Shown here in pieces: positions 5,365-22,587 of a stretch of DNA of 64,000 nucleotides. The notes beneath the pieces are model-generated. The model ran no database searches. It was not told the DNA's origin and saw only the letters and a program-made list of their open reading frames with translations. The stretch lies in the NCBI GenBank assembly GCA_027490995.1, contig JAIXWY010000011.1, forward strand, positions 1 through 64,000. The letters are read 5' to 3'. This DNA comes from Opitutaceae bacterium (GTDB taxonomy: Bacteria; Verrucomicrobiota; Verrucomicrobiia; Opitutales; Opitutaceae). The translations under genes were made by a program, and so were the position numbers. How positions within the stretch are numbered: position 1 is the stretch's first letter; each line of letters begins with the position of its first letter.

Positions 5365-7475
5365 GGGGTAGAAGAGGGTCGCTCATTCAGCCAAAGAACC
5401 GAGGTCACTCCGCGCGGATAGTAGAGGCTGCCGAGCGGTTGGCTGGTGGCACTGTGGAATTGGTCGACCATCGCATGCCCTCCGAGGAGGGGCCCGCGCT
5501 GGAAGTCGGCATGGACGCGATCAGCGCTTCGGGCGGCCGGTGACATCGCATGTGGGAATAGGCGTCTCGCGACGTGTTGGGCGAGGGCGATCTTGCTGAA
5601 CCACGTGTTCGTGCTGGTGCTGGAGATCTTCCACGCGCCGCTCGTGGCGTCGAGGCAAATGCCGGGCTGGAGCGCCGTGCGCAGGTGTTCCTCGAGGCGA
5701 GCGAGGAGCGCGGGATAGCGTCGGCGCAGGAGGTGTTCGCGTCCGAGATGGAGAAGAAACACCAAACCCTCGATTGCCGGAAGAATGATCGAGCGATTAC
5801 CTCCCTCGAACACGGCGGGAAAAGCGGCCAACTGGTCGTCGTATTTGGCCTCGAGCGTGCGGGCGAGGAGGTCGGCCGAAGCACGGGCCCGTTTGGCTTC
5901 GGGACGGTCGCCGAGCGCGGCCCACGCCTCCTCGAGCAGCCACCACGCCGCCAAGGCTTTGACTTGGAGGTAGAGATTGAGGCGGGCCTGTCCGAGCGAC
6001 ACGTCGAGCGAGTCGTAGGTTGTGATTTCGCTTCCTTCCGGACCGCACCGATCTGAGTCCCACTTGAGCAGTCCGTCGCGCCGTTGCGGATCCGGATCGT
6101 CCCGCCGCTCAAGACTGCGAGCGCACGCGCGGAGCGTCGCCGCCTCGCGGCGGAGCCATGCGAGGTCGCGCGTGTGCCGGGCATAGGTGACAGCGCAGCA
6201 GATCCAGTTGACGAGCTGCTCCATCGCCATGTGGGAAAAGCATCCATGCAGGTCGCGGCATTCGTAGCTCGAGCGTCCAGGTGGGGTGAAGTGATTGCTC
6301 ACGCCCATGTCGTGGGTGAAGGAAATCCCCCCAGCGGCCCGGCGGCCCTCCGGCCCGTGGACGGTGTCGCGGTAAGCGTAGCGGCGGCGGAACAGCACGA
6401 GGGTGTCGCGCACGGCCCAGGGAAACCATGCCAGCTCAAAGAACAGATGGTCCACCGTGAGGTCGAAGGTATTCAACATCCGGTATTCGCCCTCGTTCAC
6501 GATCCAGAGTGGCTTCCCGCCGCGGCGGAGGAGTTCGGTGCTGCCGAAGTAGCTGTGGGTGGCCTGTGCGATCAGCCAGCGTTGGTCAGCCGAAAGCGAC
6601 GAGCGCGCCAGGGCGGCATCGCGCCGTGCCGCGAGCTGGAGCCGACGGCGATGCGCGGCGAGACCGTACCGCAGGACCTCCTCCAGGTCTCGGAACAGCG
6701 AGGTGTAATGAAACCGTGCGGTGAGGCCGGAGGTCACTTGCCCTCCCTGATAGAAGCCGAGGGCGAGCGGAAACCGCCGTCGCGCTCCGGTTGGTACTTG
6801 GAAAACCAGCGCGTTTTCGGGACCGAGCAAATGCAGACCGCGGTGGTCGCGGAAGGCAGGCTGTTCGAAGGCGAAGGCCTGACGGGCCTCGACCTCCGGG
6901 CTTGGCCGGGTGGCGTAGCCGAGCGTGTGAGTATGGGCAAAGCCGACAAGATCGGCGGCGGTGTCGTTGAGCGGACGCCACGGATGCGCCGAGTCTCCAA
7001 TGCCGAAGACCAATTCCACCGGCCCGCTTCCGGCATGATTGTCGAACTCGATCCAGCCGTAGATGCACGGCGCAAAGGCGGCCTGCTGCGTCACCTTGTT
7101 CGACCGCGCCGGGTCGGGGGTGCGGTCCCACGGAGTGGCGAGGCCAAAGGTAAAGCTGCCGCTCCGCCACACGTCGGAGGCCCAGTTCAGATCCCGCGTG
7201 AATTCCTCGGAGGCCAGCGCGCGACGGGAGGGTGGAGCTGTGGTGCCCGATTCACCGGTGAATGCCTCTGCTCCACGCTGGGGACCCGGATCGAAGAATG
7301 GCAGGAGACGCCACGTTGACTCGCCGGCCGGCCGGTAACCGACGAAGACATTCTGTTGGGCGGGACCCGACAGCGACTGACCGAAGCCCCCGCGGGCGCC
7401 GTGGCGTCCGACGGTGAAGCTCGCGAAGGCGCCCAGTGGAGCGTGCTGCGTGTGGTAAGACGTGGAGGGCTTCAT
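5361..7475 (-). CDS. GH52 beta-xylosidase
   Basis: This glycoside hydrolase family 52 enzyme removes xylose from the non-reducing end of xylo-oligosaccharides with retention of configuration. Family signatures run along the protein: QHAPLGAFASFTVG at the N-terminus, LWIVNEGEYRMLNTFDLT (about 323-340, containing the nucleophile Glu328 or Glu330), GGISFTHDMGVSNHF, GCFSHMAMEQLVNWICC and EITTYDSLDVSLGQAR (acid/base Asp488 or Asp491), ending in LGSLYYPRGVTSVLWL. I chose the ATG at 7475 because it gives 704 residues, the family's usual ~705. The frame is open further upstream to 7595, but that extension is basic and unrelated. The start overlaps the GH29 stop by four bases. There is no signal peptide, so it acts in the cytoplasm on imported oligosaccharides. 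Confidence 0.95.
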   Translation of the reverse strand: MKPSTSYHTQHAPLGAFASFTVGRHGARGGFGQSLSGPAQQNVFVGYRPAGESTWRLLPFFDPGPQRGAEAFTGESGTTAPPSRRALASEEFTRDLNWASDVWRSGSFTFGLATPWDRTPDPARSNKVTQQAAFAPCIYGWIEFDNHAGSGPVELVFGIGDSAHPWRPLNDTAADLVGFAHTHTLGYATRPSPEVEARQAFAFEQPAFRDHRGLHLLGPENALVFQVPTGARRRFPLALGFYQGGQVTSGLTARFHYTSLFRDLEEVLRYGLAAHRRRLQLAARRDAALARSSLSADQRWLIAQATHSYFGSTELLRRGGKPLWIVNEGEYRMLNTFDLTVDHLFFELAWFPWAVRDTLVLFRRRYAYRDTVHGPEGRRAAGGISFTHDMGVSNHFTPPGRSSYECRDLHGCFSHMAMEQLVNWICCAVTYARHTRDLAWLRREAATLRACARSLERRDDPDPQRRDGLLKWDSDRCGPEGSEITTYDSLDVSLGQARLNLYLQVKALAAWWLLEEAWAALGDRPEAKRARASADLLARTLEAKYDDQLAAFPAVFEGGNRSIILPAIEGLVFLLHLGREHLLRRRYPALLARLEEHLRTALQPGICLDATSGAWKISSTSTNTWFSKIALAQHVARRLFPHAMSPAARSADRVHADFQRGPLLGGHAMVDQFHSATSQPLGSLYYPRGVTSVLWLNERPSSTP

Positions 7476-8767
7476 GGCGGGAGCAGATCGGACGGGCAAG
7501 GATCGTAGTGCGGGTGCGGTGCGCGCGGCACCCGCATGCCCGCGGTGAGGTAGAGGCGGGGCGGGTGGGCGCAGGTGAGCCGCAGCACGGGACAAACCTC
7601 GTCGGGCGCGGCGACCGGTGCTCCACGAATGACAAGGCGGCGACCGCGCTGGCGGAACTCCAGGCGATGATCCGTACCGAGAAGGGTCACCGCTTGTACG
7701 CGGGTTTCAAGACCATCGAGGACGAGCTCGGAGCCCGGCCAACGGCAGACGTGCCAGTACAACTGTCGCCCGCGGGCGGTGAACGGCCCGTGGTGCGACC
7801 AGTCGGCACGATGATCGCCGCGCACCTGCAGGTCCCAGGTGAAGGTGTCGGTGTCGTAGATCGCTTCGCCGCAGCGCGTGAGCCACCGCCCGACCGATCG
7901 CAGCGTGCGTACGGCGGGGGCCGGGAGAGAGCCATCGCCACGCGGGCCCACGTTGAGCAGCAGGTTCCCGCGGCTCGCCGCGCATCGCTGCAGCAGCGCG
8001 GCCACATGGCGCGCTGATTTCCACTCGTGGTCTCCGACATGCCATCCCCAGCTTTCGTTGAGCGAGAGGCAGGCTTCCCACGGTCGCCAGGGTCGCGGGC
8101 TGGACAAATGTCCTTCAGGCGTGGCGAAGTCTCCGGGGAGTCCATTGCGCCCGTTGAACAGGATGTTGGGAGCGATCGCCCGGATGCGGGCGTTCATCTC
8201 TGCGGCACGCCAGCCCCCGGCATCGAACGGCCACCAGCCATCGTACCAGAGCACGTCGGTGCTGGGGAAGCGTCGGATCAGTTCCTCGACGCGGGCAAGC
8301 GTACGGTCGACGAAGCGGACCCGAGCGCTTGGGCGCTCAAGGGCGGCGACGCCATCGGGTGCATCGTGCCACGAATTCAAGCTATGGTAGAGGCCGACGC
8401 GCAGACCGCGGACTTGGGCCGCTGCGACGAGTTCAGCGACAAAGTCTCGACCGGCGGCGGTCTTGCTCGAGCAGAAGCTGCTCAGCTCCGTGTGATAGAG
8501 CCGGAATCCGTCATGGTGCATCGTCGTGAACACGATGTACCGCTGGCCCGCCGCGCAGGCTAGGTCGCACAGTTCCCCGGCATCGAAGCGCTCTCCTCTA
8601 AACCGGCGGGCGAGATCGGCGTAGTCGCGGCGCGAGAGGCGCTCGCGATTGCGGACCCACTCGCCGCGACCGAGCAGGCTATAGAGGCCCCAGTGGACAA
8701 AGAGCCCGTAGCGCGCGGCCACAAACCAGTTCGCGTCCGGAGCCGGCGGCGTGGCGTCGTGGGTCAT
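7472..8767 (-). CDS. GH29 alpha-L-fucosidase-like enzyme
   Basis: This is a GH29-type alpha-L-fucosidase of 431 residues. The TIM barrel opens with ARYGLFVHWGLYS, then AGQRYIVFTTMHHDGFRLY and LRVGLYHSLNSW. The nucleophile is Asp176 in STDVLWYDGWW. Later segments GNLLLNVGPRGDGSLP and VRTLRSVGRWL match the barrel end, followed by a short beta-sandwich. No signal peptide is present, so it is cytoplasmic like the GH52 enzyme. It overlaps both neighbours by four bases (ATGA at 7472 and at 8764). Co-expression with a beta-xylosidase suggests a xylose- and fucose-containing glycan, but some GH29 members act on other 6-deoxy or galacto-type residues, so the exact substrate is inferred. Confidence 0.9.
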   Translation of the reverse strand: MTHDATPPAPDANWFVAARYGLFVHWGLYSLLGRGEWVRNRERLSRRDYADLARRFRGERFDAGELCDLACAAGQRYIVFTTMHHDGFRLYHTELSSFCSSKTAAGRDFVAELVAAAQVRGLRVGLYHSLNSWHDAPDGVAALERPSARVRFVDRTLARVEELIRRFPSTDVLWYDGWWPFDAGGWRAAEMNARIRAIAPNILFNGRNGLPGDFATPEGHLSSPRPWRPWEACLSLNESWGWHVGDHEWKSARHVAALLQRCAASRGNLLLNVGPRGDGSLPAPAVRTLRSVGRWLTRCGEAIYDTDTFTWDLQVRGDHRADWSHHGPFTARGRQLYWHVCRWPGSELVLDGLETRVQAVTLLGTDHRLEFRQRGRRLVIRGAPVAAPDEVCPVLRLTCAHPPRLYLTAGMRVPRAPHPHYDPCPSDLLPP

Positions 8768-9816
8768 TGGCGCAAGGCGGTGAGTCGGCCCGAGCGGGCC
8801 GCACGAGGGAGGGCATCGACGACCTGCAGGCCAGCGAGGGTGGCCTCGCGTGCGGCGGTCGACAGCACCTTGCCCGATCGGACGGCTTCCGCAAATTCTT
8901 GAAACTGGTAGTCGCCGCTCAGCACCGAGAAGACGCGTCGCTGCACCCGCGGCCGGAGTGAACGTCCCGGTTGCACGAGGGCGAGTTCCGAGCGAATGCG
9001 CCCGCCGAGGTGATCAGGGAATCCGCAATTCCGATACGCAGTTCCGCGCTCGAAGTTCACGGTCAGCGAATTCTTGTAGGGCTGGCCGTCGCTCACGCAG
9101 AACGAGCCGTAGAGGGAGGCGAGGGCTCCGTTGGCAAAGACGAGGTTCAGCAGGGCGTTGTCCGGGGTCGGTCGGCCCGTGCGGACGTGGGTCTGGGCGA
9201 CCTGCAGCGCCACGGGGGCGCCGGCCAGAGCGACGCAGTCGTTGATCAGGTAGATGCCAAGGCGAAAAATCGGCGCGACCGGGCAGCGCCGGGGGTCGTC
9301 GTACCACGAACCGTCGGCGGACTCTTGGTAGCCGACCCATGCCTCGGCTCGTAAACCGACGATTCGCCCCAAGTCCAAGGACTCCTGCCATTCGCGGATG
9401 CACGCGAGTTCGGGCGAAAGCGTCGGACCAGGCGAGTTCAGGTGAACGACGCGGCCAAGCCGCTCGGCGGCGTCGAGAGCGCTCCGGGCCGCTGCGACTG
9501 AAAGCTCAAAGGGCTTGGTCGTGAGCACGTGCTTTCCGGCGCGGATTGCTTGGTGGATCATTCGGGCCCGTTTCTCGGGACCCGTGAACAGGCCGATCGC
9601 TTCGATCGTCGGGTCGGACAGTAGGTCTTCCCACGTCGCGACGCGAACGTGGTGACGCGCGGCAACCGGACCGGAGCGGGCCGGATCCAGGTCCGCGACC
9701 GCCGCAACTGTTAACCAACGTCGTGCCGGACCTTCCATCAGCCGACGCACGATCTGGGCGCCGAAATTGAGTCCGACGATGCCGATCCGGATCGGCTGGA
9801 GTCGAGGAGTAGGCAA
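8764..9816 (-). CDS. Gfo/Idh/MocA family oxidoreductase
   Basis: This is an NAD(P)-dependent sugar or inositol oxidoreductase. The Rossmann fold begins at IRIGIVGLNFG, followed by the GKHVLTTKPFELS segment that holds the family's Lys and a C-terminal alpha/beta domain with RLGIYLINDCVALAG. The frame is open back to an ATG at 9954, but that start overlaps the receptor gene and adds about 46 proline/arginine-rich residues with no family match. A TTG at 9816 puts the Rossmann motif close to residue 9, so I prefer it, although no good Shine-Dalgarno supports it and the ATG 9954 start remains possible. The stop overlaps the GH29 start by four bases. It may interconvert or oxidise the released sugar. 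Confidence 0.85.
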   Translation of the reverse strand: MPTPRLQPIRIGIVGLNFGAQIVRRLMEGPARRWLTVAAVADLDPARSGPVAARHHVRVATWEDLLSDPTIEAIGLFTGPEKRARMIHQAIRAGKHVLTTKPFELSVAAARSALDAAERLGRVVHLNSPGPTLSPELACIREWQESLDLGRIVGLRAEAWVGYQESADGSWYDDPRRCPVAPIFRLGIYLINDCVALAGAPVALQVAQTHVRTGRPTPDNALLNLVFANGALASLYGSFCVSDGQPYKNSLTVNFERGTAYRNCGFPDHLGGRIRSELALVQPGRSLRPRVQRRVFSVLSGDYQFQEFAEAVRSGKVLSTAAREATLAGLQVVDALPRAARSGRLTALRQ

Positions 9817-9905
9817 GGGAAGTGGAGCGGGGAGAAGGGGTGAAAAGACAGCGGAGGGGGAGCGCCGAACGACGCTACCCCCTCCGAATGCAAGCGGGGA
9901 ACGGG

Positions 9906-12170
9906 TCAGAACCGGGCGCCGACCGTGAAGCGGAAGGTTTGGCCCTCGATCCATGAACCGCCGCCGAAGTCCTCCTCGTCGGTCAGGTTGCGGAGGTGGA
10001 GCGACAGGGAGATGATGCGCTTCTCAGCGAGCTTCCAGTCATACCGGACAAACGCGTCGGCGAGGATGTAGGAGTCATTCTGGACCTGTTGTCCTGAGGC
10101 ATCGGCCCAGCCGCGGTCGATCTCGCCGGTGTAGATTGCGCCGCCGCCGATCGTGAAGCCGCCGGGGAAACGGTAGCTGTTAAACAGCGAGACGCGATTG
10201 TACGGATTGTTGGCGAAGTTGCGTCCGATGTTGGCGGCGTTGGTGTCCTTGGAGATGAACGTATCGACGTACGACCAGCCACCTGTGAGCTGCCAAGCAT
10301 CGGACGGGAAATAGAAGAACGAGAAATCTACGCCCTCGGAGGTCTGCTCGCCGACCTGGATGTTGTCGCCGAGGCCGCCAGAGGCGTTCGGGGTGGTCGC
10401 GCTGAAGACGGGGAGGTTCTGGTTCTTGATCTCGTACACGCTGACCGTGCCGGAAAGGCGACCCTCAAACGCGTCGAACTTGATGCCCGCCTCGAGGCTC
10501 TCGCCGAATGACGGATCGAAATTGACGCCGAAGCTGTTCGTCGCGCCGTTGCGCGGTTCGAGGGACTCGGAGGTGAGGGCGTAGAAGCCCAGCCAGGACG
10601 TCGGCCGGTAGAGCGCGCCCACATTCGGACTCCACTTGTCGGTAACGGAGTTCCGCACGTCGACCTGTCCCGTGCGGCGCCACAGCCACTGACGCGAGTA
10701 ATCGTTCTCGTCGAAGCGTAGGCCGGCGAGGGTGGTCAACGTGTCGTTCAGGAACGAACCCTGGTAGTTCAGGTAGTACGACGTCAGCTCGATCGGATCC
10801 CGGTAGCTGAGCCACGGGCGGGCCCAGCTGACGGGATTGTAGGCGTTGTTACCAAGGGAGAGGTCCGGGTTGCGGACATTGACCGGGTAGTAGCGGAAGT
10901 TCTGACCGAGGGAGTCGACGCTGTTGGCTGGGTTCGGATTCCGGTCCTCGCGGAGCAAGCGATCGTTGGTGTCCTTGGCAAAGTTGAAGCCGGCGAGGAG
11001 CGTGTGGCTGGCGCCCGCGGCGTTGAAGCGATAGACAGCATCGGCGCGCGTCTGCCACATCGTGTTGTCGTTGTAGTCATTGGCCCAGAGCGTGCGGACG
11101 GCCTTGATCGCGTTGCCGGAGTTGTCGAGCACCAGTGCGCCGTTGCGATCGCGCAGTGCGGTGACGGTGAGCCCGCGGTGCGTCTGGGTGGTGCGCTGCT
11201 GCACGCGGTCGAGGGAGTTGAAGGCGAAGTTGACGGAGAACGCGTCGCTGAACCGGTGGTCGACGATGGCCATCACATTGCGGACCTCGTTTTGGTGGAC
11301 GGTGTCGTTGCCGGTCCACTGCTGGTCGCGCGGCACGGAGAGGAAGCCGGGCAGGTTGGTGGTTGCGCCGGTCGGGGTCAGGCTGACGTCCCGCAGTTTG
11401 TTGTGGGTGAAGCCGCGGTCCTGCTCCATGAATTCGAGGTCGAGTGTGACGGTGGTCGCTTCGGAGAGGCGGTAGCTAAACACCGGCGCGAAGAAAGTCC
11501 GGCGGGTGCTCTCGAAGTCGCGGAACCCGTCGGCGTCGGTGTACGAGCCGGTGACCCGGATGCCCAGCGGGCCCTCGGGCATGTGGTTCACGTCGAGCTC
11601 GGTGCGTAGAAAGCTGTAGGATCCGAAGATCTGGCGCATCTCTCCGAAGGAGCCCGGCTTCGGGCGCTTGGTGATGTAGTTGATCAGACCACCGGGCTGA
11701 CTGACGCCGTAGAGCACGGCGGCGGGGCCAGCGACGATCTCCTGGCGCTCGATGTTAACGCTGTCGGAAGTGTCGTAGCGGCGAAAACCCTCGCGCATCT
11801 GCCAGATGGTGCCGAAGCCGCGGATGGTCACTTGTGTGTCGCGGTCGCCATCGCGCAGGCCGACCTCCACGCCGGGCTGGAAGCGGAGCGACTCGGAGGC
11901 GTCGATGGCGCCGAGGTCACGGATGAGTTCCTCGGTGACCACCTGGATGTTCATGGGTACATCCTTGAGCGGCGTGTTGACGCGGGTGCCGCCGATGGAG
12001 TTGGAGGCGCGGTAGCCGCGGTCGCGGGACGTGTCGACGCTGAAGGGCGAGAGCGTCACGACCTCGTCGGTCCGTGCTGATGCCGCCGGTACAGACTGCG
12101 CGATCGCGACCGCTGGCGCTGCCAGGAGGCAGGCGGCCGCGAGGAGGGGAATTCGATTCGATGCTTTCAT
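9906..12170 (-). CDS. TonB-dependent outer membrane receptor (first)
   Basis: This is an outer-membrane receptor of 754 residues. A signal peptide (MKASNRIPLLAAACLLAAP...IAQS) is followed by the segment EVVTLSPFSVDTSRDRGY, typical of Verrucomicrobiota receptors and probably holding the TonB box. A plug domain comes next (LGAIDASESLRFQPGV, VNIERQEIVAGPAAVLYG, GGLINYITKRP), then a 22-strand-type barrel ending in Phe (FRFTVGARF). It is the first gene of the leftward sugar operon and should bring the oligosaccharide across the outer membrane by TonB energy. No SusD partner is present. I start at the ATG at 12170 because only there does a signal peptide begin; the frame is open to 12617. It is divergent from lacI-family gene 12282, sharing a 111-base promoter region. 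Confidence 0.93.
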   Translation of the reverse strand: MKASNRIPLLAAACLLAAPAVAIAQSVPAASARTDEVVTLSPFSVDTSRDRGYRASNSIGGTRVNTPLKDVPMNIQVVTEELIRDLGAIDASESLRFQPGVEVGLRDGDRDTQVTIRGFGTIWQMREGFRRYDTSDSVNIERQEIVAGPAAVLYGVSQPGGLINYITKRPKPGSFGEMRQIFGSYSFLRTELDVNHMPEGPLGIRVTGSYTDADGFRDFESTRRTFFAPVFSYRLSEATTVTLDLEFMEQDRGFTHNKLRDVSLTPTGATTNLPGFLSVPRDQQWTGNDTVHQNEVRNVMAIVDHRFSDAFSVNFAFNSLDRVQQRTTQTHRGLTVTALRDRNGALVLDNSGNAIKAVRTLWANDYNDNTMWQTRADAVYRFNAAGASHTLLAGFNFAKDTNDRLLREDRNPNPANSVDSLGQNFRYYPVNVRNPDLSLGNNAYNPVSWARPWLSYRDPIELTSYYLNYQGSFLNDTLTTLAGLRFDENDYSRQWLWRRTGQVDVRNSVTDKWSPNVGALYRPTSWLGFYALTSESLEPRNGATNSFGVNFDPSFGESLEAGIKFDAFEGRLSGTVSVYEIKNQNLPVFSATTPNASGGLGDNIQVGEQTSEGVDFSFFYFPSDAWQLTGGWSYVDTFISKDTNAANIGRNFANNPYNRVSLFNSYRFPGGFTIGGGAIYTGEIDRGWADASGQQVQNDSYILADAFVRYDWKLAEKRIISLSLHLRNLTDEEDFGGGSWIEGQTFRFTVGARF

Positions 12171-12214
12171 GGACTTGGGTTCGTCGGCTGGGGTTGGGTG
12201 CGCTCCGGGAGAAG

Positions 12215-12232
12215 CGCTTGGATCGTCAAGCG
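12215..12232. promoter_or_regulatory. Palindrome in receptor/LacI divergent promoter
   Basis: A perfect inverted repeat CGCTTG-N6-CAAGCG lies midway between the divergent starts of the first TonB receptor and the LacI-type regulator. It could be an additional operator or a short hairpin in the receptor leader. It differs from the 19-bp element shared with the second operon. Confidence 0.35.
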
Positions 12233-12268
12233 TAAATCTCGACTTGCGGAGAACGCAAAAAACCGTCC

Positions 12269-12287
12269 GCTTTATCGTTAAGTGAAA
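12269..12287 (+). promoter_or_regulatory. Candidate LacI operator, copy 1
   Basis: The bases GCTTTATCGTTAAGTGAAA match a second copy at 13583-13601 at 16 of 19 positions; the joint pattern is GCTTWAYCRTTAAGTGAAA. The core is a dyad CTTWA-N3-TTAAG. This copy covers the GTG start of the LacI-type gene and lies 99 bases upstream of the first receptor, so it could serve both autoregulation and control of the leftward operon. It is notably AT-rich for this genome. Confidence 0.55.
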
Positions 12288-13325
12288 ACCAAGCCAAACA
12301 GTCGTCCGACGTTGCGACAGCTGGCCGAAAAGGCCGGGCTCTCGACGGCGGCCGTCTCGATGGCGTTGCGCGACCACCCGAGCATTCCGGAACGGACGTG
12401 TGCGCGGATCAAGCGGCTCGCGGCTGCGGCGGGGTACCGGCCGGACCCGGAGATTGGCAAGCTGATGGCCTACCTGCGGCAGCGGCGTGAAGTCCGTACG
12501 ACCGCGGTGTTGGGTCTGCTCACGATGTTTCCGGAGGCTCAACCCTGGCGCGATAATCCTTTTCTGCGGCGCACCGTGGCTGGAGCGGGCGATCGAGCGC
12601 AGCAGCTCGGCTATCAACTCGCGGACTTTTGGCTATCGGAGCCGGGGATGACCCCGGACCGGCTACGCCGAATCCTGCACGCGCGTGGCATCGAGGGCGT
12701 GTTGATCCTTGGCACCCCGACGTGGGTTGAGAAGATCGATTTCGACTTCACCCGTTTTTCGTGCGCGGTGATGGGTTACAGCGTGCGAGCCCGCATGCAC
12801 CGGGCGAGCCCGCACCAGTACAAGGATTTCCTGCTGCTGATGCGGCACCTGTCGCGCCTCGCCTATCGCCGCGTCGGTCTGATCCTTACCGAGGACTCCG
12901 ACAGCCGGACGCTGCAGCATTACTCCTCTGCCTTCCTCCGTACTCAGTGGGCGTTGCCCGCCGATCAGCAGGTGCCGCTGTGCGTCCGACCCAGCATTGA
13001 CTTCGAGGTCTTCCGGGAGTGGTTCCTAGCGAACGAGCCCGATGTTGTGATCGCGCATGCTCCCCGGGCGCCGGTCTATTTGGAGTGGTTGAATCGGCTG
13101 GGACGCGCAGTGCCGGAGCAGTGCGGCTTTGCCTCACTCGATGTCGATCCTGCGCTGAGCTTTACCTGCTCCGGTATTCTTCAGGATAATGAGAAGGTCG
13201 CGGCGGCGGCCGTCGACTTAGTCGTCTCGCAGATCCAGCGTCGAGAGCGGGGCTTGCCTGACCAACCCAAGACGGTGCTGATCGAGGGGACGTGGGTGGA
13301 CGGAGTGACCACCCGTTCTCAGTAG
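12282..13325 (+). CDS. LacI-family transcriptional regulator
   Basis: This is a 347-residue LacI/GalR repressor. The helix-turn-helix is at residues 9-55 (PTLRQLAEKAGLSTAAVSMA followed by LRDHPSIPERTCARIKRLA and AGYRPDP), with a periplasmic-binding-protein-like sugar-sensing domain after it (LGYQLADFWL, GVLILGTP, RVGLILTEDSD). The start codon is GTG; it gives the normal distance to the HTH. It sits between the two TonB operons and is divergent from the first, which makes it their likely local regulator. A 19-bp element overlapping its own start and repeated before the second receptor supports this. The inducer is probably a sugar from the imported glycan. Confidence 0.92.
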   Translation: MKTKPNSRPTLRQLAEKAGLSTAAVSMALRDHPSIPERTCARIKRLAAAAGYRPDPEIGKLMAYLRQRREVRTTAVLGLLTMFPEAQPWRDNPFLRRTVAGAGDRAQQLGYQLADFWLSEPGMTPDRLRRILHARGIEGVLILGTPTWVEKIDFDFTRFSCAVMGYSVRARMHRASPHQYKDFLLLMRHLSRLAYRRVGLILTEDSDSRTLQHYSSAFLRTQWALPADQQVPLCVRPSIDFEVFREWFLANEPDVVIAHAPRAPVYLEWLNRLGRAVPEQCGFASLDVDPALSFTCSGILQDNEKVAAAAVDLVVSQIQRRERGLPDQPKTVLIEGTWVDGVTTRSQ

Positions 13326-13764: not shown

Positions 13765-16700
13765 ATGACTATTTTTCGTGCCGCTTTGCCCCTTCTCGCA
13801 GCGCCGCTGCTCTCCTTGGCTCTGTCGGCGCAGACGGTTAAGCCGCCCGCCGAAGAGGAGGTCGTGAAGGGGGCGGAGTTCCGCGTCGATACCACGCGGG
13901 ACCGCGGCTACGTGGCCACCAATTCCACGACGGGCACGCGCTTGAATCTGGAGATCAAGTCGATCCCGCTGCCGATTGAGGTCGTCACGCGCGAGTTTAT
14001 CGACGACATCGGGGCCGTCGACGTCAAGGAGGCCCTCGAGTACTCCGCGGGCATCATCCAAGATCAGGTAGCGACGTCGAATAACTTCCTCTTCAGTCCC
14101 TCTGGCACGGGAGCGGCGGGAGCGATCTCGCGCGATTCCACGGCGATCACCATCCGCGGGCTGAATACGCGATCGTTCCTCCGCAGCGGATTTCGGCAGG
14201 ACACGGTGACGGACGTGATTAATGTCGACCGACTGGAGGTCGCGCGCGGCCCGCAGTCGCTGCTTTATGGCGTGGCCTCGCTCGGCGGCATCGTGGCGCT
14301 CACCCCGAAGTATCCCCGCGCCACGCCTCAGACCGACCTGCGCTTCGGAATCGGGAGCAACGAGTTTCTCCGCGGCGAGCTGTATCACACCGGCCCGCTC
14401 TGGAAGTCGGAGTCTGGTAACCGCTTTGTGAACTACGGCGCCGGCCTCGTCTACCAGACTCTGAGCAGTCGGTCGGATTTCGACGATCGCTCCCGCCTCC
14501 TGTTTACTCCGGCAATCGAGTTCCGCCCCTTTCGCGACACCACGGTGTTCGTGGACATTGAGTATGGCCGCTTCGATACGGAGGGGTCCGGCTTTCAGGA
14601 TCTCAATGACTCCAGCGCGGGCAACGTCCGTCATCCCATCACACGGCAGTTGATCGGGGAAAATCTCAACGAGTGGAACGAGGCCCGTCTGGTCGCGAAG
14701 GATCTCTTCGGCCGCACCCGCTTGTACCGGTGGAGCGGACCCGACACCTACTCCAAGGACGACTACTTCAACGGCACGTTTGAAGTCACGCAGAAGATAC
14801 TGCCCGGCCTGACCGCCGTGATTGGCGGAAACTACTCCGACCGCCGCAACGAGCGGCGCACGATCAGTGGCTCGGTATTGCGGACGACAACGACGAGTCC
14901 GACGGTCGCCCCGACGAGTCCGGGGCTGTGGACGAACGTCGGCGCCGACCCGGTCAACGGCGCGCTCACCCAATGGAAGACCATCGGCTATGGCTGGGGC
15001 TTCGCCGAGTCGCACAAGTACATCCGCCAGGCGCGGGTGGACCTCAATTACGAGTTCACGGTGTTCGGGGCCCGGCAGAGTATCTTGCTCGGGCGCACCG
15101 ATCAGATGGTGAAGCAAAACGACCTTTCGACCACACAGGTCACGAGTAACACCACGGGGAGCCCGACGCAGGGATTCCTGACCTTTACGGCGCCTCAGTA
15201 CATCCGCTACGGAGGCGAGCAGTTCCGGCCGTTCCGCGACTCCTTCTTTACCGAGTGGGACACCGGCCATTACGCCGTCTATCAGGGACGCTGGTGGAAG
15301 GACCGCATCACGACGATCGGCGGCTGGCGCAACGAGCGCTACATGGTGCGCAGCTACTTCACCTCCTTCGTCAAGCAGGATACCACCCAGCCGGATACGA
15401 ACCTCGCCAACTGGACCCTGCCCTCGAGCCCTGACCCGTCGAGTCTGGTGAATGCGCCGGGGCAGGCGCGGGTTGTCAACGGGTACCGCTTTGGCGCCGT
15501 GCCGCAGCGTGACGACACCTTCACGCTGGGCGTGAACGTCGCCGTCACCTCGGACATCAACCTCTACGTGGTGAGTGCGGGCGGTATCTTCCCGAATACC
15601 GGGCAGCGCGACGGTGCGGCGAATCCGTTCAAGCCGGAGCGTACGCAGAGCCGCGAAATCGGCGCCAAGGTCGATCTCTTGAAGGATTCCCGTGGTCGCT
15701 CGAAGATTTCCGCCACGGTTTCCTACTTCGAACTCGATCGCGAGAATGCCATCTACAACTTCGCGTTCGCTCCTCAGCCCCGTTCCAACAATCAGACGCT
15801 GCTGCGCACCGGCTTCACCGGCAACACCGTCGCCCGCGGCACCGGACCCAACGCCTACACCGTTCACAATTCCGGCTTCACGTCTTTCCAGACGAACCAG
15901 CCGGTCACGTACCTCCTACCCATCGGCTACGTGGCGGCGGCGGACTTGACGCATCCCCGCGTGACGGGAGCGCCGCAACAGAGCGGGTTCCTGCTGGTCG
16001 ACTACGCTTCACTCGGCACCGCGGCCAACGATCCTCTGCGGCGCGCGCTGGAAGCCGCCGCCTCTGATCCCGCCACGAACACTGCGTTGCAGGGGGGCTC
16101 CATCGGGTCTGGGGCCACCGCTCTCAACGCGAACAATGCCTATGCGCTCAATCGCAACTCCGACGTGGCCTATGATGACCGGTCCAAGGGCGTCGACGCT
16201 CAGATCTACCTGAATTTCACCGACCAGCTTAGTACCGTGCTCTCCTACACCCACTTGGTGCAGGCGGTCACCGGCGGCTTTGAGATCGTCGACCAGCCGT
16301 CCAGCACCGAGTACGACTCATGGTGGCGATTCCTCCGTTACACCACCGACGAAGCCCGCGCCATCTCGCTTGATGAGTCGCAGTCGTCGGTCACCAAAGT
16401 GGGCGCGATCGGACGCCGGACGAGCGATGTTCCCCGCAACGTTTGGGCGATGTGGAACAACTACAAGTTCACGAACGGTCGTCTGCGTGGCTTCGAGGCC
16501 AGCCTTGGCTTCACGCTGAATGGCCCACGGCAGGGAGAGCAGGTGATCGACAACGGCCTGCGCGACCGTTCCAACGACGAGAACCGTCGCTACCGCCCCG
16601 AGATTCCGATGGAGTACAAGGTCAACGCGGCGGTCGCCTACCGGGGTAAGCTCCTCGGGAGGGTCTGGAACATCCGGCTGAATATCACCAACCTTCTCGA

Positions 16701-16869
16701 CGATCAAAAGATGGTGAGCACGAACACCACCGATCTCTTCATCAATCCGGCCACCGGCGCCTTGGTGCCGTCCACCACCGCCGGCGCTGAGCGGATCACG
16801 GTTTCCAATCGCTCGATCCGCTACTTCGATCCTCGCTCGTTCCGCCTCAGCATCAGCACGCGTCTATGA
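13765..16869 (+). CDS. TonB-dependent outer membrane receptor (second)
   Basis: This 1034-residue receptor has a signal peptide (MTIFRAALPLLAAPLLSLAL then SAQ), the lineage-typical segment FRVDTTRDRGYVATNSTTGT, a plug (IGAVDVKEALEYSAGI, VINVDRLEVARGPQSLLYG) and a long barrel ending in a Verrucomicrobiota-style C-terminus (YFDPRSFRLSISTRL). It is longer than the first receptor (754), as expected for carbohydrate-type receptors with large loops. It heads a rightward operon: its TGA overlaps the ATG of an FGE-like gene (16866). A copy of the putative LacI operator lies upstream. It likely imports a related or larger glycan fragment than the first receptor. Confidence 0.93.
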   Translation: MTIFRAALPLLAAPLLSLALSAQTVKPPAEEEVVKGAEFRVDTTRDRGYVATNSTTGTRLNLEIKSIPLPIEVVTREFIDDIGAVDVKEALEYSAGIIQDQVATSNNFLFSPSGTGAAGAISRDSTAITIRGLNTRSFLRSGFRQDTVTDVINVDRLEVARGPQSLLYGVASLGGIVALTPKYPRATPQTDLRFGIGSNEFLRGELYHTGPLWKSESGNRFVNYGAGLVYQTLSSRSDFDDRSRLLFTPAIEFRPFRDTTVFVDIEYGRFDTEGSGFQDLNDSSAGNVRHPITRQLIGENLNEWNEARLVAKDLFGRTRLYRWSGPDTYSKDDYFNGTFEVTQKILPGLTAVIGGNYSDRRNERRTISGSVLRTTTTSPTVAPTSPGLWTNVGADPVNGALTQWKTIGYGWGFAESHKYIRQARVDLNYEFTVFGARQSILLGRTDQMVKQNDLSTTQVTSNTTGSPTQGFLTFTAPQYIRYGGEQFRPFRDSFFTEWDTGHYAVYQGRWWKDRITTIGGWRNERYMVRSYFTSFVKQDTTQPDTNLANWTLPSSPDPSSLVNAPGQARVVNGYRFGAVPQRDDTFTLGVNVAVTSDINLYVVSAGGIFPNTGQRDGAANPFKPERTQSREIGAKVDLLKDSRGRSKISATVSYFELDRENAIYNFAFAPQPRSNNQTLLRTGFTGNTVARGTGPNAYTVHNSGFTSFQTNQPVTYLLPIGYVAAADLTHPRVTGAPQQSGFLLVDYASLGTAANDPLRRALEAAASDPATNTALQGGSIGSGATALNANNAYALNRNSDVAYDDRSKGVDAQIYLNFTDQLSTVLSYTHLVQAVTGGFEIVDQPSSTEYDSWWRFLRYTTDEARAISLDESQSSVTKVGAIGRRTSDVPRNVWAMWNNYKFTNGRLRGFEASLGFTLNGPRQGEQVIDNGLRDRSNDENRRYRPEIPMEYKVNAAVAYRGKLLGRVWNIRLNITNLLDDQKMVSTNTTDLFINPATGALVPSTTAGAERITVSNRSIRYFDPRSFRLSISTRL

Positions 16870-17693
16870 GGCCGTGGCGCGCGGCAACCGTCGTCTGCGC
16901 CGGACTCCTGCTTCTGGCCGCAAGCCTTATCAGTGTGCGGGCCTCCGCACGCGTGTCCGGTGAGGAACGACTCGTGGAACTGGGTAAGGGCGAGGGGCTT
17001 CGTTTTGTTTGGATTCCATCGGGGGCTTACTGGCGCGGCAGCGCCCCCGAGGAGTCGGGACGCGGCGCCGACGAGGGGCCCCGCCACGAGGTGGTCATCA
17101 GCCGAGGCTTTTTCCTCGGCGTGCACGAGGTCACCCAGGCACAGTGGGAAGCGGTAATGGGCCGCAACCCGGCGGCGTTCCGGTACGGGCCGTTGGCGCC
17201 GCGCCGCCCGGTGGACTCGGTTTCCTGGGAGGACTGCGCACGTTTCATCGCGCGGCTCGACGCGCGAGGCAACGGACGCTTCCGGCTGCCGACCGAGGCG
17301 GAGTGGGAGTACGCCGCGCGAGCCGGCAGCACCACGCGTTTCCCCTGGGGTGACGACCCCGGAGAGAGGGAGACGCACACCCACGCGTGGGCGAACAGTC
17401 GCTCTTACGCGGTGACTCACCCGGTCGGCGGCAAACCGCCGAATGCATGGGGCCTCTACGAGATGCACGGTAGCGTATGGGAATGGTGCAGCGACTGGTA
17501 TGGACCGTATGCGGCTGGGTCGCAGCGCGATCCTCTCGGGCCCCCTTCGGGCACGGAGCGAGTCTTCCGGGGAGGGAGTTGGTATGATTTTCCCGTGAGC
17601 CTCCGCTCTGCGAACCGTCACCGACATCGGCCTGACGGACGCTACACGGCGGTGGGTCTTCGCTTGGTGTGGGAACCGGAGGATTCGCGATGA
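16866..17693 (+). CDS. Secreted FGE-like (SUMF1 domain) protein without the cysteine pair
   Basis: This 275-residue protein has a signal peptide and one formylglycine-generating-enzyme-like (SUMF1) domain: FVWIPSGAYWRGS, VHEVTQAQWEAVMGRNP, FRLPTEAEWEYAARAG, GLYEMHGSVWEWCSDWYG and VFRGGSWYDFPVSLRSANR. True FGE enzymes carry two active cysteines just after RGGS(Y/W); here that stretch has none, so sulfatase activation by the known mechanism is not expected, and no sulfatase gene lies in the window. It overlaps the receptor gene before it and the fusion gene after it by four bases each. A binding or accessory role in glycan processing is possible; the function is not known to me. Confidence 0.85.
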   Translation: MRPWRAATVVCAGLLLLAASLISVRASARVSGEERLVELGKGEGLRFVWIPSGAYWRGSAPEESGRGADEGPRHEVVISRGFFLGVHEVTQAQWEAVMGRNPAAFRYGPLAPRRPVDSVSWEDCARFIARLDARGNGRFRLPTEAEWEYAARAGSTTRFPWGDDPGERETHTHAWANSRSYAVTHPVGGKPPNAWGLYEMHGSVWEWCSDWYGPYAAGSQRDPLGPPSGTERVFRGGSWYDFPVSLRSANRHRHRPDGRYTAVGLRLVWEPEDSR

Positions 17694-20239
17694 AGGCATG
17701 GCTGCTACTGTTTCTGGGTTCTTGGATCCTGATCGCCGACGCCGCGTCGGCCGCCGGGCCGGCCGCGCCCCTCCGGGAGCGCGTGGTCACCTTGGCGGAA
17801 GGCCTGACCTTCACCTTCGTCGAGGTGCCGGCGGGGAGCTTTGTGATGGGCAGTCCTGCAGGGGAGATGGGGCGGGCGAACGACGAAGCCCCGCAGCGCG
17901 AGGTCACTCTCAGCAAAGCATACTGGATCGGCAAAGTTGAGGTGACGCAGGCGCAGTGGCTCGAGGTGATGAAGGGAAATCCATCGACCTTCCGCGATTA
18001 CGGAGCGTCGTCGGTCCATCCCGTCGACAGCGTTTCGTGGCTGGATGCGCAGGAATTTTTGGCCCGTCTGGGCGCGCGCGGGGTAGGCCGATTCCGGCTG
18101 CCGACGGAGGCGGAGTGGGAGTACGCCGCGCGGGCGGGGACCACGGCCCGGTTTCCGTGGGGGGAGGATGATGGTTTCCGCTCCCTCGCCGAGCACGCAT
18201 GGTTCTACCCGCGAGCAGAGGGACGCAGTCATCCCGTGGGGACCAAACGGCCCAATGGCTGGGGTCTGTACGATATGTTCGGTGGAGTATGGGAGTGGTG
18301 TGCGGATTGGTACGGACCGTACTCGACGGGTGCGGCCGTCGACCCGCAAGGGCCCGTGGAGGGCACGCATCGCTGCATCCGCGGCGGGAGCTGGTTCAAC
18401 GAAGCGGAGGCCTTGCGGAGTGCTAATCGGCATCGGCATCTGCCGGACTCACGCCAGACCAACATCGGGCTGCGACTGGTCTGGGAGCCTCCTGCCGGCG
18501 TGGGAACGGCAGTCTACGAACGACGGCCCAATGGCTCAATTCCCAATGGTTATCGCGCAATGCCTTCGGTCGCGACAGGCCCGTGGTTTGTTCCGGTCGA
18601 CGGGCACGCGCCGGTCGCCGCCGGCGAGCACCCTCGACTCCTGTTCCGGCGCTCCGATCTCCCCGCTCTGCGCGCGAGGGCTGCCACGCCGGAGGGCCAG
18701 GCGATTCTCCGGCGCCTGCGCTACCTGCTCAACGGGGCGGAGGGCGAAGGACCGGCCCCTCATGTCAGCCGAGCTTCAGAAGCCTACCCCAAGGAAAAGG
18801 TACAGACTCTACCTGTGGGTATGCTGACGATCGGACATCCGGCGGGTTACGGGTTGCTATACCAGCTGACTGGCGAGGCACGCTATGCCGAGTGGGGAAG
18901 GGAGTCCTTCGAGCAACTCCTGGCTGGCGTGCGCGACCGCGATCCCCGCTATAGCTTCCGACGGCCGGGCGGGGCGCTCCGAGCCGGGCCTTCGCTTGGC
19001 TGGATGGCGGTCGGATACGACCTTTGCTATGACGGCTGGGACGCCGCTACGCGCGAGCGATTTGGACGTGCGATGGCGGAGTACCACGAGGTACCGGACA
19101 CGGCCAAACCGAAGGACGCGGTCACCTTGGCCAGCCTCGCGCGCGGCACGATGCCGCCTTATAGCAATCACTTCAGCATGCAGGTCGGCGGGGCGACACT
19201 CGCCTTGCTCGCCCTCCGCGGCGAAGCGTGGACGGATGCGGCCTTAATCGACCATCTCCTTGAGTACGCAGCACACGGTGTCGTCCGTAACTTGGATGAG
19301 GGCTTCGGCGACGGGGGATTCTATGCGGAGGGTGACGGCACTGGCTCGATGGCCTCGCAGATCGTCTTCCTCAGCGCGCTCCAGGCCTGGCGTAACGTCG
19401 AGGGCCGCGACTACTTCGCGAGCCCCCGACCGAACGCGCGCATGCTTACGCTCAAGTGGGCCTACCAAACAGTTTTTCGCGAGGGCGTACCAGACTTGTG
19501 GCCGGTGCGCGGTGGGTATTCACGGAACGTGTGGGCCCGTCACGGAATGAGCGGGGCGTCGTACTTCGCGCTGGGCATGGGCAGTCTTCCCCCAGCGGAG
19601 CGCGGAGCGATGGCGTGGATTTACGACCGGTTTCTCGCCGCGGCGGATGCCCGCGCGGGCATGCCGTTCGACACCGCGAACACCTATCCCCAGTACGTCG
19701 TCCACTCGTTCGTGAGTTGGCCGCTGGGCGAGGCCACGATCGATCCGCACCTTGTCCTGCCCCACGCTTACCGCGATTCAATGGCCGGATTCTTCTGCTG
19801 GCGCGATCGTTGGCAGGACGAGAATGACACCGTCATCACCGTGTTAACCAATCCCGTCCGCGGCTATATGGGGGCAGAGGCGGACCGCGCGTTGGCCGTC
19901 CACTCCCGCGGGCGTCGGTTGCACTGGGGGACGGTCACCGAAGGTCCGGTGCGCGATTGGAGCACCTCCGCCCGAGCAGAAACCAGCACGCTGACGCTCG
20001 CCGACGGAACCGCGTTCGCCGTCGACTTTACGGGAGCGAGCGGTGCGGAAATCATGCTCGTGACGACAGGTGCGGCGGAGGGAACGCCGGTGACGATTGG
20101 AGGCACGACGTTGACGTTCTGGTTCCCGACGGCGGAACGGCCCCCCGTGCCGCGGGTCGAGGGCGATGCCGTCCAGGTCGGCCGCCAGCGAGTCACCTGG
20201 CGCGATGGCCGGCTCTCTCTGGGAATCACGGCGCGCTGA
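17690..20239 (+). CDS. FGE-like domain fused to toroid lyase-like domain
   Basis: This is a secreted protein of about 849 residues. A signal peptide (MKAWLLLFLGSWILIADAAS) precedes an FGE-like domain (about 30-270) very similar to the preceding gene (FRLPTEAEWEYAARAG, GVWEWCADWYG, CIRGGSWFNEAEALRSANRH) and likewise lacking the catalytic cysteines. The second half begins GEHPRLLFRRSDLPALRARA, the usual opening of heparinase II/III-like (alpha/alpha)-toroid proteins, and continues with a helical region (LLYQLTGEARYAEWG, DGGFYAEGDGTGSMASQIVF) and a C-terminal beta-sandwich. A role in polysaccharide cleavage or binding is inferred. I start at ATG 17690, which overlaps the upstream TGA; a GTG at 17669 would spoil the signal peptide. 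The domain pairing is unusual. Confidence 0.8.
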   Translation: MKAWLLLFLGSWILIADAASAAGPAAPLRERVVTLAEGLTFTFVEVPAGSFVMGSPAGEMGRANDEAPQREVTLSKAYWIGKVEVTQAQWLEVMKGNPSTFRDYGASSVHPVDSVSWLDAQEFLARLGARGVGRFRLPTEAEWEYAARAGTTARFPWGEDDGFRSLAEHAWFYPRAEGRSHPVGTKRPNGWGLYDMFGGVWEWCADWYGPYSTGAAVDPQGPVEGTHRCIRGGSWFNEAEALRSANRHRHLPDSRQTNIGLRLVWEPPAGVGTAVYERRPNGSIPNGYRAMPSVATGPWFVPVDGHAPVAAGEHPRLLFRRSDLPALRARAATPEGQAILRRLRYLLNGAEGEGPAPHVSRASEAYPKEKVQTLPVGMLTIGHPAGYGLLYQLTGEARYAEWGRESFEQLLAGVRDRDPRYSFRRPGGALRAGPSLGWMAVGYDLCYDGWDAATRERFGRAMAEYHEVPDTAKPKDAVTLASLARGTMPPYSNHFSMQVGGATLALLALRGEAWTDAALIDHLLEYAAHGVVRNLDEGFGDGGFYAEGDGTGSMASQIVFLSALQAWRNVEGRDYFASPRPNARMLTLKWAYQTVFREGVPDLWPVRGGYSRNVWARHGMSGASYFALGMGSLPPAERGAMAWIYDRFLAAADARAGMPFDTANTYPQYVVHSFVSWPLGEATIDPHLVLPHAYRDSMAGFFCWRDRWQDENDTVITVLTNPVRGYMGAEADRALAVHSRGRRLHWGTVTEGPVRDWSTSARAETSTLTLADGTAFAVDFTGASGAEIMLVTTGAAEGTPVTIGGTTLTFWFPTAERPPVPRVEGDAVQVGRQRVTWRDGRLSLGITAR

Positions 20240-20388: not shown

Positions 20389-22587
20389 TCACGGTTCCTC
20401 CATGGTCCAGAGCGGTGAGTCGCCTCGATAATCGAGATCGAAGCCGCCGGCGTCGGTGCGTAACCGCAGGCGTCCTTCGCCAACGGTCAGCGGACCGCTG
20501 GCGGCGTGCCCGCCGTTGGCCCAGGATCGACGAAGGAGGGTTTCGCCGTTGACCCGAGCCGCGGGGCGGAGCGCCGTGGGCTGGTAACTCAGCTCCAAGT
20601 GGTCGCCGGAAATCGCAGCGTAGCGGGCGGTTAGTCCCTCAAGAGACACGCGACCCTTCTTCTCAAGAGACGCCAGAGTTGGAGCGCTGGAGCGCTCTAC
20701 GGCCTCAAGGGCGAAGCCGGCGACCTCGCCAGGAATCGCCAGAACCCGGTAATCCCGGAGTCTCTGTACGGGATGTCGACCACCCGTGTCGGCCGCGAAC
20801 GCCGCGGGATCGGGATCGATCCAGAAGGATCCCGGGACGAGCGGAGTGACGACGATCCAAGTCTCCGGAGCCTCGATGACAAATCGGTCGCGTTGCGGAT
20901 GAATCTTCGTCTTTCGCGGTACCCATAGCCACGTGGCCGCCGACGAACGCGAGCGGTCGAAGTAGCCTCGCAATGCCGAGGGATCGTCTGACGTGGGCGG
21001 GCTCGCAGGGTGCAAGGGGCCGGAAAAGGCAGTGATCCGGGTGTAGCTGCGGGGGCCTTCGAGTTGGTCGATCCGCTCAAGGGTGGGTGGGAGGGTATCA
21101 CCCGGCGGCGGCTGCGTCGGCCCGGTCATGAAGAGGATCGCACCGCGCTTCTGGACCCATTGATCGTAGGGGCTGTGGCCCTCCGGAGAAAGCCACCGCG
21201 GCTGGCCGCCCCCGAAAATCAGGGACTCGCGTTCCCCGCGTACGTTGAGCGACCACGTGGTCTGCTGTCCGGAATTGTTGATCCCATCGAGTTGGACGCT
21301 CCCGAGTGCGAAGCTCGATGAACAGTAAAACGTTTCGAGATGCCGCCCGGCTTCGCTCATGCCGTAGTCAGGGTGGGATAACTCCGCTTCGAAGGGCAGG
21401 GGAACGTGCTTGGCGGCAAGAGCGATGATCGCGGGATCAGGCCGGTACCGGGTGGTCAGTTGGTGGAGAGAGACATGCGCCTTGGAGGGATCGACCGGGA
21501 CCGTGGTGTAACCCGGAGTGCCGCCGGCCCACAGCCAAAGCAGCGTGTCCATCTCGCCGAGGTGGTCGCCCTCGACCCAACCACGGCGCTTGGGGCCGGT
21601 GTGAACGCCGTTGAAGACCTTGAGCGCGTACACCGTGAGGTAATAATCAATTGCTGCGCGGGCAACGGCGCGGGTTGCTGGTTCGGGTGAAAAATCGTGG
21701 AGATTGAGGAGGCTTTGGATCGAGTGGGGAAAGTAAGAGGTCGACTGGTACTCTCCGTTGCCCATGACGAAAAGCTTTCGGGTGAAGTCGCGCAGAACGC
21801 CCCCAGCGATCACGCGCGTCTGCGCCGGGGTGTGGCCCGAGATGAGTGCGTCGTCGGGAAACGTTTCCGCAAACAGAAGCGCGCTCGTGCGGAACATGAT
21901 CTTGTGGTTCTCGGTTCCTCCCCCGCCGAGATGTTGGTCAGGCCGGCCCACAAGCGTGAAGGGCGCCTCGACCGGTGCGTGTTCACGGGGGCCGTCGGAC
22001 GGCCGACGAGAGTCGGCGTAGTCAGCAACGGCCCGCCGGAACGCCGTCTGGAACGCCTCGCCGAGTTGGTTGCCAAGCAGGCCCTGCAGCCTGGCCCAGT
22101 GACTGGTGGCGAAGTGGTACTGCTGGCTGAGATTGCCGGGAATCATCAGGAAGGCTCGGGCCTGTGCATCCGTCGGATCACGGAGAAGGCGAGCGATCAC
22201 CGGCGGCAGATCGAACTTCAGCGGATCGCCACCAAACGCGGAGATGCGGCCCTCCGCGTCGCGCGCCTTGGGACCGAAGTACCCCGTGGGTCCCTGACGG
22301 TAGCGTCGTCCCGTATAGGGTGAAATGATCTCCTCGCCTTCGACCGCCCAAGCTCGCACCGGAAGGCCGGTGTCCGGACAGGACGACGGCGCGAGCGAGC
22401 GCTCCCCATACGGCTTCCGAGCGATCGCTTCAACGAGACCGCGGCTTCGTTCGCTAAAACCCGCCTCGTCCGCATAGCGTTCGGGCGGCCATGCCAGTGG
22501 CGTGGGCGCGGCGCCGAGGGAGGAGAGGGCGGTGAGCCCGGACCATGCGCAGGCGAGGCGCAAGAACGAATGAAGGCAGGCGACCAT
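20389..22587 (-). CDS. Large secreted protein, toroid-like, function unknown
   Basis: This 732-residue protein has a signal peptide (LRLACAWSGLTALSSLGAAP). The middle is mostly helical with segments GTENHKIMFRTSALLFAETF, FVMGNGEYQSTSYFPHSI, ATRAVARAAIDYYLTVYAL and GDHLGEMDTLLWLWAGG; the last third is beta-rich. This helical-then-beta layout recalls (alpha/alpha)-toroid polysaccharide lyases, but I cannot assign a family. It converges on the FGE/toroid fusion gene, so it borders the sugar locus and may process the same glycan outside the cytoplasm. No regulatory copy of the 19-bp element was seen upstream. The start at 22587 gives a plausible signal peptide. Confidence 0.75.
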   Translation of the reverse strand: MVACLHSFLRLACAWSGLTALSSLGAAPTPLAWPPERYADEAGFSERSRGLVEAIARKPYGERSLAPSSCPDTGLPVRAWAVEGEEIISPYTGRRYRQGPTGYFGPKARDAEGRISAFGGDPLKFDLPPVIARLLRDPTDAQARAFLMIPGNLSQQYHFATSHWARLQGLLGNQLGEAFQTAFRRAVADYADSRRPSDGPREHAPVEAPFTLVGRPDQHLGGGGTENHKIMFRTSALLFAETFPDDALISGHTPAQTRVIAGGVLRDFTRKLFVMGNGEYQSTSYFPHSIQSLLNLHDFSPEPATRAVARAAIDYYLTVYALKVFNGVHTGPKRRGWVEGDHLGEMDTLLWLWAGGTPGYTTVPVDPSKAHVSLHQLTTRYRPDPAIIALAAKHVPLPFEAELSHPDYGMSEAGRHLETFYCSSSFALGSVQLDGINNSGQQTTWSLNVRGERESLIFGGGQPRWLSPEGHSPYDQWVQKRGAILFMTGPTQPPPGDTLPPTLERIDQLEGPRSYTRITAFSGPLHPASPPTSDDPSALRGYFDRSRSSAATWLWVPRKTKIHPQRDRFVIEAPETWIVVTPLVPGSFWIDPDPAAFAADTGGRHPVQRLRDYRVLAIPGEVAGFALEAVERSSAPTLASLEKKGRVSLEGLTARYAAISGDHLELSYQPTALRPAARVNGETLLRRSWANGGHAASGPLTVGEGRLRLRTDAGGFDLDYRGDSPLWTMEEP

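Follow-up and report, generated by a model that had tools for sequence, protein, structure and literature searches.

The window analyzed here, a stretch of 64,000 nucleotides (positions 1 to 64,000, forward strand) of contig JAIXWY010000011.1 from an Opitutaceae bacterium of the phylum Verrucomicrobiota (assembly GCA_027490995.1), contains a gene in which a domain resembling the formylglycine-generating enzyme (FGE) is fused to a domain with the toroid fold of polysaccharide lyases. The gene and its two domains are located as follows.

17690–20239, + strand: FGE::toroid lyase-fold fusion gene, an open reading frame (ORF) of 849 amino acids, with an ATGA overlap with the preceding solo FGE-like gene
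17816–18484, + strand: fused FGE-like domain ('type 2', residues 43–265), without the FGE copper cysteines and with an RSANRHRH signature
18599–20236, + strand: toroid lyase-fold domain, assigned from the predicted structure, its secondary structure elements, its predicted local distance difference test (pLDDT) score and fold matches; (alpha/alpha) toroid at residues ~304–690, beta domain at ~690–849

The ORF runs from an ATG at 17690 to a stop codon at 20237–20239 and is free of internal stops. Its N-terminus (MKAWLLLFLGSWILIADAASAAG) was judged by eye to be a signal peptide, and the Pfam FGE-sulfatase family (PF03781) matches residues 43–265 with an E value of 2.9e-50, which upholds the exported FGE-like half proposed in the initial annotation of this DNA. 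The C-terminal half starts with GEHPRLLF (residue 312, window position 18623), where the HPRL start of heparinase II aligns. The Pfam scan of this half returned zero families, and the best lyase model in NCBIfam, HepB (PL21), matched it weakly (E 0.0046, a score of 15 bits where the cut-off is 600). Since GC content and GC at third codon positions (GC3) are equal across both halves and the same fusion is present in five other genomes, the gene is not an assembly joint. An assembly fault as the origin of the fusion is ruled out by these five further genomes, and a real single-ORF fusion of FGE-like and toroid lyase-fold domains is confirmed. We found no paper describing the architecture in the open-access literature, in agreement with the initial annotation, to which it was not known as a described class; CAZy lay outside this search and may hold an unclassified entry.

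The fold of the C-terminal half was assigned from structure prediction. Residues 300–849 of the AlphaFold model are mostly good, and the modelled segment 296–848 consists of an (alpha/alpha) toroid followed by a beta-sandwich domain, as in the heparinase II/III-type toroid lyases. Foldseek with this segment returned toroid lyases with E values down to 2.8e-11. In VIA the top match was chondroitinase 9o3q (Z 24.5, 4.2 Å, 436 residues aligned); the matches also include PL39 Dp0100 6jp4 (Z 24.3, 5.3 Å, 487 aligned), PL17 Alg17c 4ok2 (Z 23.4, 4.7 Å, 452 aligned), dermatan sulfate epimerase 1 6hzn (Z 21.2, 6.4 Å, 489 aligned) and heparinase II 3e7j (Z 17.4, 5.0 Å, 457 aligned). The prediction that the FGE-like half is joined in one chain to a heparinase II/III-type toroid is thereby borne out. 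A 31-row profile of the family, used to search solved structures, matches the PL17 alginate lyase 8bdd (E 6.6e-6). No Pfam family covers these 31 rows, the best being DUF4962 (1.3e-4, two rows); the C-terminal half belongs to a toroid lyase-fold family that is absent from Pfam and spread across the Planctomycetes-Verrucomicrobia-Chlamydiae (PVC) bacteria.

Like the PL17 oligoalginate lyases (Alg17c 4nei/4ok2; 8bdd), the window protein combines a toroid with a beta domain and has an Asn-His pair and an EG motif, and the His in the FHC segment of 8bdd aligns with H383 of the window. It differs from them in being 13–14% identical, in lying outside Pfam and NCBIfam families, and in lacking a Tyr at the Tyr258 position and apparently also a conserved beta-domain His. 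PL21 heparinase II and the PL35 GAGases, along with chondroitinase 9o3q, share its fold (Z 16–24.5). Of the catalytic residues given for PL21/PL35 in PMC12088678, Tyr257/Tyr246 is without a conserved counterpart in this family, and so, apparently, is His406/His401.

The active site was analyzed on an alignment to the family profile of 57 distinct tree rows, kept after the removal of short or duplicate ones; 49 of them, all from PVC bacteria, were counted as the core (left out were L031, L035, L043, L044, L047, L052, L053 and one frame of L079). The following positions are considered below.

19166–19171, + strand: Asn493-His494, aligned with the Asn-His pair of PL17 (carboxylate neutralizers), present in 49 of 49 core rows
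19328–19342, + strand: EGDGT (residues 547–551), in which Thr551 aligns with the catalytic Tyr (EGxxY) of relatives and canonical lyases
19517–19519, + strand: Tyr610, a candidate relocated acid/base, present in 49 of 49 core rows and absent from four relatives bearing Tyr551

Toroid lyases, as outlined in PMC12088678 and PMC4765187, neutralize the carboxylate with an Asn, often together with a His, and in addition use a Tyr and, in most cases, another His. The first element is present in the window family. In the alignment with 8bdd, N493-H494 falls opposite the Asn-His of the lyase and E547-G548 opposite its EG, where the alignment ends. Seven residues, N493, H494, Y610, H383, Y421, R431 and D574, are each found in all 49 core rows. 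The catalytic Tyr after the EG motif is absent: none of the 49 rows has Tyr at position 551 (T in 27, P in 14, A in 3, C and S in 2 each, G in 1), and among the excluded rows L043 has Thr and L047 a gap. The distant homologues L035, L044, L052 and L053 read EGxxY, whereas most core rows read EGxG followed by T, P, A, C, S or G, and the two groups can be aligned gap-free over the G-x(3)-EG-x-x-[Y/T] stretch. No window His after H494 reaches 90% conservation in the core rows, in an alignment that is loose over the beta domain. Hence the classical Tyr/His lyase site, for which the initial annotation proposed a check, is not supported, and the open-access literature search yielded no paper on this catalytic Tyr. 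The four Tyr-bearing rows have W, W, W and a gap at position 494, and F, W, E and V at 610. Because these relatives are without H494 and Y610 and the core rows have both, the loss of Tyr551 goes together with the gain of the pair, and we infer that H494 and Y610 may have taken over proton transfer in place of the Tyr. A Planctomycetota toroid member that the tree places within the core clade (L031:7683–9674) has lost the equivalents of N493, H494 and Y610 and is likely degenerate or functionally changed.

The fusion gene is the third gene of an operon. The second gene, overlooked in the initial annotation, encodes another FGE-like domain, of the type that is partner to the fused domain.

13765–16869, + strand: TonB-dependent receptor gene, 1034 amino acids, first gene of the operon (Pfam Plug, E 3e-11)
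16866–17693, + strand: solo FGE-like gene, exported, 275 amino acids, 'type 1' FGE domain (Pfam FGE-sulfatase, E 5.6e-46), with a 4-base ATGA overlap with the receptor gene

In the window each start overlaps the preceding stop by four bases, both between the receptor and the solo FGE-like gene and between the latter and the fusion. The order TonB receptor, solo FGE-like gene, FGE::lyase gene is seen in all five loci where the upstream side is visible, with a receptor homologue immediately 5' of the FGE pair in L001, L002, L075 and L077, and five of five also show the ATGA overlap between the solo FGE gene and the fusion. The receptor and solo FGE genes clearly overlap in the window; in three loci they may do so with GTG starts, and in L002 no such overlap is seen. 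The receptor of L002 is only 41% identical, whereas the FGE and lyase parts of this locus are 67–77% identical.

Sequence identity between the solo and fused proteins is 55% across the FGE region (146 of 265 columns), and the 3.47-Mb assembly contains no PF03781 domain besides these two. Both have the PF03781 domain of FGE (SUMF1) and PvdO and lack the copper-binding Cys pair, which we take to be C336 and C341 in human FGE; in the window, these positions align with a gap and a Ser. An own signature, NRHRH (mostly RSxNRHRH), marks 14 domains in a comparison of 46 FGE domains, these being all the fused, solo and double-FGE domains, and 0 of the 32 others; none of the 14 domains has a Cys in the copper-binding segment. 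The solo domain of the window also has the signature. The DNA form of the signature occurs in 13 of the 252 genomes of the family, and the backward control was unmatched in the listed genomes. In the relatives G289 and G339, one protein contains two such FGE domains and no lyase domain. In the FGE tree, solo genes cluster with the N-terminal domains of the double-FGE proteins L062 and L063 (support of 91 in the Shimodaira–Hasegawa-like approximate likelihood ratio test, SH-aLRT), and the fused domains with their C-terminal domains (SH-aLRT 88); solo and fused domains are sister types. That the pair exists in some cases as separate genes, in others as a single chain, and in others again with an enzyme attached to its second half suggests that the two domains work together as a heterodimer. 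In G390, another genome of the family (L122:5452–6850, − strand), the FGE pair is encoded by two overlapping genes that by eye adjoin sulfatase-like genes.

Among solved structures, the closest in sequence to the FGE half is TvpA, a variable protein of C-type lectin fold (E 3e-31); PvdO 5hha matches with an E value of 2.1e-29. PMC6328139 describes the C-type lectin fold as one that serves ligand binding in general and includes an FGE subtype. The absence of the copper cysteines, the variability of this slot in the relatives (the N-terminal slot of the lyase-fold relatives is either empty or holds an unrelated beta-rich domain) and the similarity to TvpA fit a non-catalytic, C-type-lectin-type binding or docking module that may bind sugar, in line with the binding or targeting unit suggested in the initial annotation.

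The fusion is rare and confined to a single clade. A scan of genome contigs with its second half yielded 35 loci, nearly all from Planctomycetota, Verrucomicrobiota and Kiritimatiellota, with one distant cyanobacterium. Within the phylum of the window this half is matched in 13 of 387 genomes, and within its family in 8 of 252. The FGE::lyase architecture is present in six of these eight (the window, G434, G438, G443, G445 and G471); the lyase gene of G446 is cut near a contig end, and that of G483 is a 1698-amino-acid frame without FGE. The loci L001 and L002 are named copies of G438 and G445, respectively, with identical lyase rows, and a sensitive FGE profile run over the first set of lyase ORFs detected FGE only in these two and in L036, the copy of the window. 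In the lyase tree (both trees are of the 'quick' type, with support by SH-aLRT only), the six fusions form one clade (support 100) within a 13-row clade (99), which also contains forms without an extra domain and the forms L003, L004, L037 and L038 with a beta-rich N-terminal domain. The latter domain, found also in L020, is about 290 amino acids long, belongs to no Pfam family and occupies the slot of FGE; its predicted structure in L003, L004 and L020 is poor (pLDDT 45.6).

FGE domains are a common add-on in these bacteria. The complete fusion query matched in 239 of the 387 Verrucomicrobiota genomes at E <= 1e-20, mostly via the FGE half. Twenty FGE loci, mostly long frames, were surveyed, and 17 FGE ORFs were scanned (L103, L108 and L121 were left out): nine are protein kinases, one is a GH127 protein, one combines DUF4838 and PA14, one GDPD and LamG, one has an LRR, and four have FGE alone, counts that do not represent frequencies, as the selection favoured long proteins. 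At least two of the FGE domains are thus on proteins of a sugar-enzyme type, for instance the GH127 beta-L-arabinofuranosidase with a C-terminal FGE domain (L115:1695–4658, − strand). The serine/threonine kinases resemble the fusion in carrying FGE as an added module (9 of the 17 long FGE proteins) and differ in partner domain and FGE subtype.

The left flank of the operon (3574–13325) is a glycan-use cluster with an SSF symporter, GH52, GH29, a GFO/IDH/MocA oxidoreductase, a TonB receptor and a LacI regulator, and this gene content fits glycan use. Of the window genes included in the comparison, the neighbourhood of L001 shares just the LacI regulator and the operon, and that of L002 shares the operon alone. 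Searches of Pfam, NCBIfam, PHROG and the PDB sequences gave no match for the 732-amino-acid ORF convergent to the fusion (20389–22587, − strand), and this ORF was not found beside L001 or L002.

We propose that the protein is exported, probably to the periplasm, as a two-module enzyme of a TonB-receptor operon. The toroid half has kept the Asn-His pair, which would neutralize the carboxylate of a putative uronate substrate, and, with the catalytic Tyr of EGxxY lost, the invariant His494 and Tyr610 would serve proton transfer on an acidic oligosaccharide; the acidic polysaccharide suggested in the initial annotation is a plausible substrate. The FGE half would make no formylglycine and would pair with the solo FGE-like product of the preceding gene, and the FGE pair would presumably keep enzyme and sugar close to the importing TonB receptor. 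To the whole of this reading, an FGE-docked, TonB-linked enzyme with a rebuilt active site acting on acidic oligosaccharide, we give about an even chance. The bolder claim is more doubtful, namely that the proton-transfer residue has moved from the helix Tyr to His494 and the loop Tyr610 in a new catalytic arrangement and, at the same time, that the enzyme is tied through an FGE-type heterodimer to the TonB receptor in one Verrucomicrobia lineage, the FGE pair taking the part of the SusD-like proteins of Bacteroidetes; we advance it tentatively.

Several observations weigh against the proposal. That H494 and Y610 lie near N493 or in the cleft is a presumption, and such strong invariance could also mark an enzyme that is not a lyase. 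The neighbourhood of the core lyase genes does not point to a substrate: in 83 neighbour proteins from 14 loci (reduced from 104 proteins within 6 kb of 15 loci, all of L019 being left out) there is no shared carbohydrate family, and the commonest family is PQQ_2 (6 of 83). The operon is patchy, because the lyase domain was unmatched in the nine genomes of the same genus other than that of the window. Finally, the FGE half is modelled poorly, with pLDDT below 50 at residues 150–258, and its interface is therefore not visible in the model; alignment A2, used for the structure, placed the solo FGE row wrongly against the lyase half, so that the FGE half rested on three rows.

For the toroid half, the most serious competitor is another toroid-fold catalyst, such as an epimerase, dehydratase or hydrolase, reusing the Asn-His pocket, with the FGE half still an accessory. 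The loss of the canonical Tyr in 49 of 49 rows, the apparent lack of a conserved beta-domain His and the presence of dermatan sulfate epimerase 1 among the fold matches speak for it. The neutralizer pair is nevertheless retained throughout the core and the closest solved relative by sequence is a lyase, while the fold alone cannot discriminate; we consider such a catalyst unlikely, though to be reckoned with. The same two losses would suit a catalytically dead, carbohydrate-binding scaffold, but seven invariant polar residues are more than we would expect of a scaffold across the PVC phyla, and the degenerate L031 has lost N493, H494 and Y610 jointly, as a co-working set would, which makes a dead domain decidedly improbable. 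An ordinary heparinase II/III-type lyase of the classical Tyr/His mechanism, its Tyr only misaligned, would agree with the fold, the Asn-His pair and the EG motif; given the gap-free alignment of the EG stretch with the Tyr-bearing homologues and the absence of Tyr at 551 from all core rows, we rate it lower still.

For the FGE half, production of formylglycine or redox chemistry in the service of sulfatases or of the lyase half could be argued from the 17 sulfatase matches in the genome (two of them in one frame), from its having no FGE domains other than these two, and from an NRHRH signature that could bind metal. The gap and Ser at the copper positions stand against this, as does one strong anaerobic sulfatase maturase (anSME) in the same genome (510 bits against a cut-off of 349), due to which sulfatase maturation does not need the two FGE-like proteins. 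The role of sulfatase maturase was rejected on these grounds, and the broader explanation is very improbable. The similarity to TvpA also raises the idea of a variable protein of a diversity-generating retroelement; unlike the TvpA group, which is akin to the FGE half in sequence and ligand-binding fold, the window domain is fused to an enzyme fold, and its genome, 94.7% complete, has 0 matches to the reverse transcriptase family PF00078. We rejected this candidate as next to impossible.

If the change of the active site in the proposed FGE-docked enzyme is real, the family would offer a natural experiment on the residues that a toroid lyase cannot do without, and would mark a widespread PVC enzyme family unseen by Pfam. 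Paired FGE domains next to a TonB receptor would give a concrete function to the FGE-like proteins, a kind of protein frequent in Verrucomicrobiota whose family is named after enzymes that modify sulfatases.

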